Assembly: GCA_028866275.1 (NCBI GenBank)
Contig: JAGWIK010000002.1
Span: forward strand, 1 to 64,000
From: Alphaproteobacteria bacterium
GTDB taxonomy: Bacteria > Pseudomonadota > Alphaproteobacteria > UBA9219
DNA length: 64,000 nucleotides
Reading direction: 5' to 3'
This document shows, one piece after another, positions 28,981-37,494 of the stretch. Each line of letters starts with the position of its first letter. The first letter of the stretch is position 1. A program made the translations under genes and the position numbers. Under the pieces are notes generated by a model. It did not search any database. It was given only the letters and a program-made list of their open reading frames with translations, and was not told the DNA's origin.

Positions 28981-29802
28981 ATGTCTGTGGCGATGAAGAG
29001 CAAGGCGGGATCCTGTGGGCAAGACCCAAGCAAGACCGTTATCGATTATGGGCGCAAGCATATCAACGCGGTGATCGAGGATTGCAGGCAGCAGAGTGCC
29101 ACTTTTAGCTGCATGGAACGCGCGGTTTTATCCATCTTCACGGAAATGGATAACCGGCCCGGCGTTAATGCGGTTTACAGGATGTTCAGGTTTGCCGCCG
29201 TGGAAATCGCCGCCGAAATCGACGTCACGATGGAAACCGGCCTTGCCTGCTCCGGCGCTGCGGTTCATCCGGCCGCCGACAGTCGCGACAATTTGCGGTA
29301 TTTTATACTGGCGGCTGAAACTTTCGCGGCGTTGGCGCGGGAATTCAATCTGGCCGCCGAACGCGACAGGCTGGACAGCGCCGACCTGGCCCGTGGATTA
29401 TTCGTGCTTGTCAGTTCCTACGCCTGGGCGGGCAAACTTGACGGGACACAACAAGCCGATGCCGGAACGTTCGACCGGGCCCAAATTGCCGAAAATGTCA
29501 AAGATCAGGTAACGGCGTGGCTCGGCTGTGTTCGGGGATTGTCTGACGAAAACAGGGGCGGATTGATGGGAGCTCTGGCTTTTTCCGATAACGACAAAGA
29601 CAGGCTTTTGTCTGCCCTGATTCACGATGCCTATGTTCTGCCTGGGCTGCTGTATGCGGAAGCGGGCGCGGTTCGGTGCGATGAGGCGCCGTTTCGGCCA
29701 TCGGCGGCATCGGCCCATGCGGAGAATTTATACCGTGAAGCGGGGGGCTTGAAAAGCGAAGTCGGCCGCAGGCTTGCCGCGGGGCGGTTGGCTTTGGCCT
29801 GA
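28981..29802 (+). CDS. Hypothetical protein, unrecognised
   Basis: A 273-residue, mostly helical and acidic soluble protein with no recognised domain. A strong GGAGG site lies six bases before the ATG. Ala-rich helices such as [14 protein letters not shown] and [20 protein letters not shown] dominate. No signal peptide or membrane segment is visible. It is divergent from ettA, and the leader peptide of DAHP synthase starts 45 bases after its stop. With the gene at 26191 it is the second orphan flanking ettA; no similarity between the two was seen by eye. Confidence 0.75.
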
Positions 29803-29847
29803 AATCATTCTGTTGCGCCGGCGGATTCGTTTTGTTAGGCTTGGCCC

Positions 29848-29931
29848 ATGATTTCCGCGCCCATCCCTTTTTCCGTTTCGACGCCTGTTGCCGGCGGCGC
29901 GTTCGGCTATGGATTCTATTGGTTCCGGTAA
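29848..29931 (+). CDS. Putative aromatic-rich leader peptide upstream of DAHP synthase
   Basis: A 27-codon frame too short for usual gene calling. It ends FGYGFYWFR, so six of eight consecutive residues before the final Arg are Phe, Tyr or Trp. It lies 94 bases before the class II DAHP synthase, the first enzyme of aromatic amino acid synthesis. Its last codons and stop form the left arm of an 8-bp hairpin. This is the layout of ribosome-mediated attenuation. A weak promoter (TTGCGC, 17 bases, TAGGCT at 29836-29841) would start transcription at or next to its ATG. That would make it leaderless, as known for the trp leader peptide of Sinorhizobium. Confidence 0.65.
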   Translation: MISAPIPFSVSTPVAGGAFGYGFYWFR

Positions 29932-29940
29932 AACCGGAAC
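29922..29940 (+). promoter_or_regulatory. Hairpin at the end of the leader peptide (attenuator element)
   Basis: GTTCCGGT pairs with ACCGGAAC around an AAA loop, overlapping the Trp-Phe-Arg-stop codons. A ribosome finishing the peptide would cover it, while one stalled at the aromatic codons would leave it free. An upstream segment, GCGCGTTCGG, could pair with CCGGAAC plus GCGC downstream as an alternative. No T-run terminator was found before the DAHP synthase gene. Confidence 0.5.
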
Positions 29941-30025
29941 ACACGCGCGCTTTTCCCCCTTATAATTCGACATTTTCCCTCGGCCCGGCTAAAAGCCGTG
30001 GCGCTGAATTTATGAAAGACCGATC

Positions 30026-31399
30026 ATGACAAATCTTGCGAACTGGACGCCCGACAGCTGGCGCGCCAAACCGGCCAAGCAGATGCCGACCTATCTTGAC
30101 GCCGCTAAAGCGGCCGAAGTGGAAGCGCGGCTGGGCAAAATGCCGCCGCTGGTTTTTGCGGGCGAGGCGCGCAAGTTGAAGAAAAAGCTGGCCACGGTCG
30201 CGGCCGGCGAGGCGTTTTTGTTCATGGGCGGCGATTGCGCCGAAAGCTTTGCCGAATTTTCCGCCAACAATATCCGCGACACTTTCCGCATGATTTTGCA
30301 AATGGCGGTGGTGTTGACCTTTGGCGGCGGCATTCCCGTCGTCAAGGTCGGGCGCATGGCCGGGCAATTCGCCAAGCCGCGGTCGGACGACACCGAAACG
30401 CGCGATGGGGTGACGTTGCCCAGTTATCGCGGCGATATTATCAACGGGCTGGATTTCACCGCGGAATCGCGCCGTCATGACCCCGAACGCATGATGCAGG
30501 TGTATAACCAGTCCGCCGCGACGCTGAATTTGTTGCGCGCCTTTGTGCAGGGCGGTTATGCCGATTTGCATCGCGTGCATCAATGGAATCTGGATTTTGT
30601 CGCGCGCGGGTTGCAGGGCGAACGATATCGCAATCTGGCCAACCGCATCGACGACACGCTGGAATTCATGGCCGCCTGCAATATCACGGCGGAAACGTCG
30701 GCGCAGATACGCGAAACCGAATTTTACACGTCGCATGAAGCTTTGTTGCTGCCCTATGAACAGGCATTGACGCGTATCGATTCAACGTCGGGCGATTGGT
30801 ACGACGTGTCCGCGCATATGTTGTGGATCGGCGAACGCACGCGCCAGCCGGACGGCGCGCATGTCGAGTTTCTGCGCGGCGTCAAAAACCCCATCGGGTT
30901 GAAATGCGGGCCGAAAATGGCGACCGACGATTTGATGCGTTTGGTCGAGGTTTTAAATCCGGCCAACGAACCGGGGCGGTTGACCTTGATCGCGCGTATG
31001 GGCGACGACAAAATCGCCACGGCGTTGGCGCCGTTGCTGCGTGCGACCAAAGCGGCGGGACGTGTCGAAGTGTGGTGCAGTGATCCCATGCACGGCAATA
31101 CGCATGTGTCGGCCAGCGGGTACAAGACGCGCGAATTTTCGCGTATTTTGACAGAGGTGCGCGGCTTTTTTGATGTCTGCCGCGCCGAGGGCGTTCATCC
31201 CGGCGGCGTGCATCTGGAAATGACGGGGCAGGAAGTCACCGAATGCGTTGGCGGCGCGGCGGCCGTTACCGATGCGGGGCTGGCGGCGCGTTATGAAACC
31301 CATTGCGATCCACGATTGAATGCGACGCAGGCGTTGGAGTTGGCTTTTCTGATCGCCGATTATCTGAAACAGGGACGCAAAGCCGCGCCGGAAATCTGA
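30026..31399 (+). CDS. aroG: Class II 3-deoxy-D-arabino-heptulosonate 7-phosphate synthase
   Basis: This enzyme condenses phosphoenolpyruvate and erythrose 4-phosphate as the first step of the shikimate pathway. The plant-like class II signature is clear over 457 residues: [15 protein letters not shown] (metal-binding Cys), [43 protein letters not shown] and [18 protein letters not shown]. It is normal in length. The leader peptide and hairpin upstream suggest control by aromatic amino acid supply at the level of tRNA charging. Confidence 0.96.
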
Positions 31400-31596: not shown

Positions 31597-31977
31597 ATGG
31601 TTTACGAAACGCGTCGCATTGTTTTGGAAAAAGAAGAGCTGTTCCTGGCATTGGAAGCCCATGGTCGCATGACCCCGCATTTCTTGCCGCGCGGCCGGGT
31701 CGTGGATTTCGAAGCCTTGTCGCCGACCAGCATTATGGTCACGGTCGAGACCGAACCTGATGCGCAGGAAGCGACGGTGATTTTCACCGACGGCAAGCTG
31801 GTGCAGGCTTTGGTGCGGTTTTGTCTGGAAAACAATATCATGTTGCCGCGCGCCGCGCGCAAATCCGTGGCGGTCGATGCCGAACATGTGTCGCTGTGCA
31901 TGGATATGGATGTCGATATTTTTATGCCGCGCAGTGCGCCGGCGTCGTTTGCCGATTTGTGCATGGCGGCGGGATAA
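31597..31977 (+). CDS. Conserved hypothetical protein
   Basis: A 126-residue soluble protein. GGAG lies ten bases before the chosen ATG; the longer open frame from 31510 lacks such a site. It contains RRIVLEKEELFLALEAHGRMTPHFLP and VQALVRFCLENNIMLPRAARKSV, resembling small proteins of unknown function in Rhodospirillales-type genomes. That resemblance is from memory and not verified. No signal peptide, membrane helix or catalytic motif is seen. It stands alone between DAHP synthase and the tRNA-Ile2 terminator. Confidence 0.7.
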   Translation: MVYETRRIVLEKEELFLALEAHGRMTPHFLPRGRVVDFEALSPTSIMVTVETEPDAQEATVIFTDGKLVQALVRFCLENNIMLPRAARKSVAVDAEHVSLCMDMDVDIFMPRSAPASFADLCMAAG

Positions 31978-32029
31978 GGTGGTGGGCCATTGGGTCGAAC
32001 CGGCTGGCCCTTCAACTCTGCCAGACAAA

Positions 32030-32065
32030 CCAATGAACAACCCCGTTAATGGGGCTGTTCATTGG
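32030..32065 (-). terminator. Terminator hairpin fused to the tRNA-Ile2 3' end
   Basis: CCAATGAACAACCCC and GGGGCTGTTCATTGG flank a 6-base loop. On the minus-strand RNA the single mismatch becomes a G-U pair, so all 15 positions pair, followed by UUUGUCU. The stem begins with the CCA of the tRNA itself. Confidence 0.75.
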
Positions 32066-32138
32066 TGGGCCCGGCAGGATTCGAACCTGCGACAACACCG
32101 TTATGAGCGGTGCGTTCTAACCGCTGAACTACAGGCCC
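32063..32138 (-). tRNA. tRNA-Ile2 (CAU anticodon), CCA encoded
   Basis: On the minus strand a full cloverleaf is seen: acceptor GGGCCTG/CGGGCCC, D-arm GTTC-AGCGGTTA-GAAC, anticodon arm CACCG-CTCATAA-CGGTG, T-arm GCAGG-TTCGAAT-CCTGC, A discriminator and CCA. The CAT anticodon leaves Met or Ile2. The GGGCC acceptor and short D-loop resemble Ile2 (AUA-reading after lysidine modification) more than elongator Met. Family assignment is therefore probable, not certain. Confidence 0.8.
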
Positions 32139-32214
32139 ACGCAGCAACGGATGCACAGGGATAACAAAGTCTTACGGCTTTGAGAAACATATTTTTGCCG
32201 TTATAACGGCTTTC

Positions 32215-34638: not shown

Positions 34639-34713
<75 letters not shown>

Positions 34714-34816: not shown

Positions 34817-34903
34817 GCGGGCATGGCGGAACTGGTAGACGCACAGGACTTAAAATCCTGAGTCCGCAAGGACGTGCCGGTTCGATTCCGGCTGCCCGCA
34901 CCA
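34817..34903 (+). tRNA. tRNA-Leu (UAA anticodon), CCA encoded
   Basis: A class II tRNA of 87 bases with acceptor GCGGGCA/TGCCCGC, anticodon arm CAGGA-CTTAAAA-TCCTG with TAA, a long variable arm (AGTCCGCAAGGACG) and T-arm GCCGG-TTCGATT-CCGGC. CCA is encoded. Two GC-rich hairpins (one at 34929-34944) follow before the next gene. Confidence 0.96.
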
Positions 34904-37046: not shown

Positions 37047-37050
37047 AAAG

Positions 37051-37494
37051 CCAGACGGTCTGTAAGCCGGGTTCTGTCCTCGCGCTTGCGCGCGATGGAT
37101 GATCATTCATCTGGGACGTTCGTTGCCGAACGCCTCGTGCAACCTACCCGAGCCACGCGCGGGGAACGCGCCGCGCACTTATGGGCCGAAACCCAAGTCT
37201 GCGCTGTGTGGCTCCTATTCGGTTTTGCTTCAGGCGGGGTTTTCCATGCCGCCCCCGTTGCCGGGGACGCGGTGCGCTCTTACCGCACCTTTTCACCTTT
37301 TCCCGTTTCCCGAAAGAAACGGGTAGTTTGTTTTCTGTGGCACTTTCCTTTGGGTCGCCCCAACCGGACGTTATCCGGCGCCTTTTTCCCCTGAAGCCCG
37401 GACTTTCCTCCTGACATCTGAAACAAAGACATTTCATTAACATATTGGAATAATGTCATTATTTCAGATGTCAGGCGATCACCCGACCGTCTGG
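37051..37494 (-). ncRNA. rnpB: RNase P RNA (class A), with extended P3
   Basis: On the minus strand the 5' end CCAGACGGTC pairs with the 3' GACCGTCTGG as P1. The conserved GGAAAGTCCGGGCTTC follows P3, and AAAGTGCCACAGAAA, GGTAAGAGCGCACC, GATGAATGATCA and ACAGAACCCGGCTTA occur in the correct order. P3 is unusually long: a perfect 14-bp stem (arms 37410-37423 and 37462-37475) plus an inner 6-bp stem in AT-rich sequence. A possible promoter upstream is TTGTTT, 17 bases, TGCTAC. Confidence 0.95.

Follow-up and report, generated by a model that had tools for sequence, protein, structure and literature searches.

How a cell might tie the first step of aromatic amino acid synthesis to three end products at once is the question raised by a short open reading frame in the DNA analyzed here, a stretch of 64,000 nucleotides (the window) from a 2.19-Mb alphaproteobacterial assembly. 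Analysis of the window revealed a gene at 30026-31399 on the plus strand whose product matched PF01474 (E value of 8e-211) and TIGR01358 (E value of 7e-221), both well past the cutoff, and is therefore a class II DAHP synthase (DAHPS), the first enzyme of the pathway; orthologues are present in relatives. An SD-like GAAAGA (30014-30019, plus strand) precedes this gene. Upstream of it, at 29848-29931 on the same strand, lies a frame of 27 codons, MISAPIPFSVSTPVAGGAFGYGFYWFR*, which ends 94 nt before the DAHPS ATG (30026). A reading made from the letters of the window (the sequence-only reading) had described this frame, ending in FGYGFYWFR*, as an aromatic leader peptide with an attenuator, and the frame, its distance from the gene and the identity of the enzyme were confirmed. 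A longer form of the frame is ruled out because an in-frame TAG is located four codons upstream. The putative control codons, F19 to R27 (FGYGFYWFR), occupy 29902-29928 (plus strand), with the core FYWF at codons 23 to 26. Across its six frames, the window has 1,772 stop codons that follow at least 15 open codons, and this is the only one with at least six aromatic residues in the 10 codons before it; the frame has six. Rfam yielded no match at E values up to 10 in 29780-30080 and none at the leader in a scan of the whole window.

A DAHPS search of relatives, followed by strand-correct reading of the upstream regions, revealed this layout in 15 genomes from the window's family, its own included, and in one genome of a sister family (G025). 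A covariance model run over 33 genomes of the order added a further family member (G008) and recovered nearly all of the other leaders. The arrangement is thus found before orthologous DAHPS genes in 17 genomes of one order, 16 from the window's family and 1 from the sister family, and the frame is kept over a length of 27 to 31 codons. According to the same model, the leader occurs in one copy per genome, always before DAHPS save for one orphan. This orphan lies in a sister-family genome (G032:C139:1757-1846; about 1500-1590 of L048), away from DAHPS and without an in-frame ATG, and ends in ..AAGFYFYGFR* with TTCCGGTGACCCCGGAA. It may be an orphan leader, a remnant, or the product of a contaminating contig or binning error. 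Four family genomes (G002, G009, G010, and G011) carry DAHPS without the leader, which indicates that the leader is dispensable.

Model R1, applied with strict filters to 385 genomes of the class, found leaders only in the window's order. When 104 regions upstream of DAHPS genes were scanned for aromatic frames, almost all of them belonging to genomes outside the family and exclusive of 15 further regions for which the script assigned no orientation, no comparable leader was found; the T-rich frame LFFFWFFSGTF upstream of DAHPS in L160 was taken as a chance occurrence. An exact pattern, searched in 84,980 species with a single genome per species, was found in nine alphaproteobacterial metagenome-assembled genomes (MAGs) and in four unrelated genomes (two Streptococcus, a Carnobacterium, and a Bacteroidetes MAG), where by our own estimate about two matches are expected by chance. 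The expectation that the same peptide ending would precede this gene in other Alphaproteobacteria therefore held within one order and failed beyond it. No published description of such a leader upstream of class II DAHP synthase in Alphaproteobacteria was found in a literature search whose scope left subscription journals mostly outside.

Comparison of the 17 leaders revealed a peptide end of F-Y-W-F-R, in which Phe, Tyr, and Trp are exchanged at the free positions, preceded by Gly, Ala, and further aromatic residues. Phe occupies position -2 in all 17 leaders, whereas position -3 holds W in 15 and Y in 2, position -4 Y in 13 and F in 3, and position -5 F in 12 and Y in 2. Conservation is absent from the first half of the peptide; what is kept is the peptide end, together with an overlapping hairpin (hairpin B, see below). 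The last 10 codons contain on average 6.4 aromatic residues in the leader frame, compared to 1.7 and 1.2 when the other two frames are read, and the aromatic share upstream of these codons is 5%. In most species all three aromatic amino acids are present within the positions of the FYWF core. The joint occurrence of Phe, Tyr, and Trp codons, and with it the leader-peptide interpretation, is thus supported by conservation in 17 genomes. The identity of the aromatic residue at each position varies, which would be expected for codon sensing and less so for a fixed arrest peptide.

The transcript was predicted to begin at the leader ATG. A sigma-70-type promoter, TTGCGC-17-TAGGCT, is located at 29813-29841 (plus strand) and ends 6 nt before this ATG. 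The -35/-10 pair of the window is weak in itself, and its placing is the same in the relatives: all 17 leaders have a -10-like hexamer 6 to 7 nt before the ATG and a TTG-starting -35 hexamer 17 nt higher (16 nt in L003). This placing was assigned by script in 16 leaders and by eye in L008, where it fits the second of two adjacent ATGs. Compared to other positions, the placing gave a combined Fisher P value of 6e-17, with sequences that are not independent. A leaderless start at the ATG, as put forward in the sequence-only reading, is accordingly predicted for all 17 leaders.

The 8-bp hairpin which that reading had placed over the last leader codons was likewise found. Hairpin B (29922-29940, plus strand) consists of GTTCCGGT (29922-29929), an AAA loop, and ACCGGAAC (29933-29940). 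It spans codons F26 and R27 and the stop codon, which begins in the 5' arm and ends in the loop. The hairpin is nearly invariant in the 17 leaders and the orphan copy, with energies of -7 to -13 kcal/mol and a mean z-score of -2.9; its columns vary so little that covariation is uninformative. In L026 the peptide end has changed from WFR to YFG, yet a one-base slide preserves a 6-bp helix; this argues for selection on the RNA structure itself.

Folding z-scores computed along the 17 leaders revealed structure at two further places. Hairpin A (29880-29902, plus strand) would lie inside the frame before the aromatic codons; its mean z-score is -1.16, versus +0.19 in the window's own sequence, so that it is weak here and emerges only as a trend of the family. 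Hairpin C (29983-30002, plus strand), a GC-rich stem without a U run, lies between the linker described below and the DAHPS ribosome site, in the family 40 to 94 nt beyond hairpin B, and has a mean z-score of about -1.2 and an unconserved sequence. The evidence for both hairpins comes from energy statistics, since their stems differ between species in sequence and position and could not be aligned for column-wise covariation. Between hairpins B and C extends a C-rich, G-poor, unstructured linker (29941-29982, plus strand), a candidate loading site for Rho. Its excess of C over G places it in the top 1% of the window's 42-nt stretches, with a mean of +9.9 in the 17 leaders, and it is less structured than shuffled sequences (mean z-score of about +1). 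One genome, G019, departs from the usual spacing: 217 nt separate hairpin and gene, compared to 91 to 115 nt in the others, and the leader is kept. The difference stems from about 100 to 110 extra nt that follow hairpin C and precede the DAHPS start (G019:C23, L010), including a strong CCCCCGCGCAGGCGGGGG stem. A repeat origin of this DNA was rejected, as its 20-mer is found a single time in G019.

Taken together, these features suggest that 29848-29931 is, in all probability, a stalling-based sensor of the charging of Phe, Tyr, and Trp tRNAs. The proposal draws on the conserved frame, the aromatic codons, the predicted leaderless promoter, the stop-codon hairpin, the C-rich and unstructured linker, the lack of a U-run terminator, and the link to DAHPS, all established by comparing sequences. 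We infer that the leader is translated, that ribosomes stall on it, and that stalling raises DAHPS expression. RNA synthesis would start at the leader ATG, and the 27-codon frame would be translated immediately. With ample charged Phe, Tyr, and Trp tRNAs, the ribosome would pass FGYGFYWF, terminate at the UAA within hairpin B, and depart; hairpin B would then fold, and the exposed C-rich RNA that follows would permit a transcription stop before DAHPS. If any one of the three were short, the ribosome would stall on FYWF and hold hairpin B open, and DAHPS would be expressed. A ribosome stalled there would probably overlap the 5' arm of hairpin B, given a footprint of about 16 to 18 nt from the P site, so that the hairpin could form only once the ribosome had cleared the Phe, Tyr, and Trp codons and left.

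For the output step, Rho-dependent termination on the linker is the preferred candidate, with somewhat less than an even chance. It is favored because no terminator is present, the rho gene is found in the genome, the linker composition is right, and the extra nucleotides of G019 are tolerated; a leader kept at this greater length fits an output that is independent of the DAHPS ribosome site. Several points stand against this mechanism. The linker, at about 42 nt, is short for a Rho site, a ribosome halted at FYWF would leave it uncovered, so that the anatomy does not explain how stalling would exclude Rho, and there is no conserved alternative pairing to carry the stalling signal onward. The full scheme, a leaderless sensor with three inputs in which a stall on FYWF keeps the stop-codon hairpin open and Rho replaces the intrinsic terminator as the off-switch, is put forward tentatively.

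Stalling might act on translation instead, with transcription unaffected and the position of the ribosome on the leader altering access to the DAHPS ribosome site. Leaderless stalling frames with translational output are known (PMC9031893), an intrinsic terminator is absent here, and hairpin C lies near the ribosome site; the folds, however, show no conserved pairing with this site, and the G019 leader is kept despite about 100 extra nt before the gene. We consider this explanation the main rival, if a rather doubtful one. A classical attenuator, with a 2:3 antiterminator and a 3:4 intrinsic terminator formed by hairpin C, is unlikely. In about half of the leaders a CCGG stretch of hairpin B is able to pair with one of hairpin C, but no stem followed by a U run was found between the leader and DAHPS, neither behind hairpin B or C in the window nor, on visual inspection, in the 17 leaders. 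Intrinsic terminators do seem to be used elsewhere in the genome (46 found versus 31 ± 6 in shuffled sequences). The 3' arm of hairpin B paired with hairpin C no better than in shuffled sequences (mean z-score of -0.29). Alternative pairing with an upstream segment, which had been suggested from the window, can indeed be drawn there; across the family, conserved pairing with the region upstream within the frame was no better than in shuffles (mean z-score of -0.35) or in pairings across species. Such pairings look attractive in single species (L002, L017, and L036) and not across the family. The label of attenuator, in its classical sense, is not supported.

The end of the leader also resembles an arrest peptide responding to one of the aromatic amino acids in free form at the stop codon, in the manner of TnaC and tryptophan: the WFR* end is conserved, the stop codon is placed in a hairpin, and a C-rich stretch follows as in tna. 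The last codons are also constrained by hairpin B, however, and the hairpin is kept where W is replaced by Y (L028) or WFR by YFG (L026); the preceding positions exchange aromatic residues freely. Moreover, arrest induced by the product that opened the gene would act in the wrong direction for a biosynthesis gene. The tnaC leader, induced by free Trp through its arrest peptide, serves a breakdown operon. Arrest of this kind is improbable here. A chance frame that happens to cover a conserved RNA element or DNA site could account for the stronger conservation of hairpin B compared to the N-terminal portion of the peptide, but it is hard to reconcile with the in-frame excess of aromatic residues, a frame kept over 27 to 31 codons, and a promoter fixed relative to the ATG, and we regard it as highly improbable.

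Compared to described systems, the leader is of a known general kind. The nearest is AroR of Corynebacterium glutamicum, whose transcript is leaderless, as is predicted here. AroR precedes aroF (DAHP synthase) and carries Phe-Tyr-Phe; stalling raises expression under Phe limitation, and the leader responds to Phe and not to Tyr (Neshat et al. 2014, as cited in PMC11802643 and PMC7356990). The likeness is one of design, an aromatic-codon leader peptide before a DAHP synthase gene. AroR belongs to Actinobacteria, and these two sources report no Trp sensing, whereas the window's leader has Phe, Tyr, and Trp codons; the class II enzyme, the stop codon inside a hairpin, and the missing intrinsic terminator are further differences. 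The trpL leader (rnTrpL) of Sinorhizobium meliloti is likewise an alphaproteobacterial leaderless leader for aromatic synthesis that acts by attenuation; it responds to Trp only, precedes trpE, and yields an attenuator small RNA (PMC10117765), whereas in the window's family no such leader was found before trpE, and no terminator is seen here. Rho-dependent attenuation is described for tnaC of Escherichia coli (Konan and Yanofsky 2000, as cited in PMC1262725), where a leader stop codon is likewise followed by a Rho site, here a candidate one, without an intrinsic terminator. Here, too, the leader stop is followed by tna-type RNA, rich in C, poor in G, and unstructured, though the stretch is short. 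The poly-cysteine leaderless frames and cys leaders of mycobacteria are stalling frames, as is proposed here, and also lack a conserved terminator hairpin; Rho-dependent or translational output has been proposed for them; they sense another amino acid, and no stop-codon hairpin is described in these reports (PMC9031893, PMC1262725). A leader was predicted for aroF of Shewanella (PMC2659441, which cites Camakaris 1980 for an attenuator sensing tyr-tRNA); attenuation is thus proposed for a DAHP synthase gene there as well, but for a Tyr-sensitive isozyme and for Tyr only.

The physiological meaning lies in the step that is controlled. No aromatic leader was found before trpE or pheA of the family (gene starts being approximate), so that leader control of this kind seems to fall on the entry step. 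Other bacteria handle multiproduct control of this step by allostery or isozymes. Because the genomes show one DAHP synthase of the class, a three-product reading at this step makes sense, and the leader would read all three end products with codons. Parts of the family seem to be losing their capacity for amino acid synthesis. No trpE match was found in about half of its genomes (G001, G003, G004, G007, G009, G013, G017, G018, and G020 to G023), several of which are incomplete, and G003 and G004 have no DAHPS or pheA match either. In several genomes the Trp codon is kept without a trpE match, and Trp sensing there would report outside supply. The two leaders that lack Trp in their aromatic run (L026 from G017 and L028 from G020) both belong to genomes in which trpE gave no match; as Trp-bearing leaders occur in such genomes too, a relation between loss of the codon and of trpE is suggestive at most. 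The system offers a clear test case of leader-peptide control without an intrinsic terminator, proposed elsewhere, for the mycobacterial cys genes, on weak evidence.

Besides this locus, the window contains a bacterial class A RNase P RNA gene (Rfam RF00010) at 37047-37494 on the minus strand and tRNA genes at 32066-32138, 34642-34713, and 34817-34900. The plus-strand frame at 31877-32164, ending in ...WARQDSNLRQHRYERCVLTAELQAHAATDAQG, overlies a tRNA gene on the opposite strand and represents a familiar type of false ORF.
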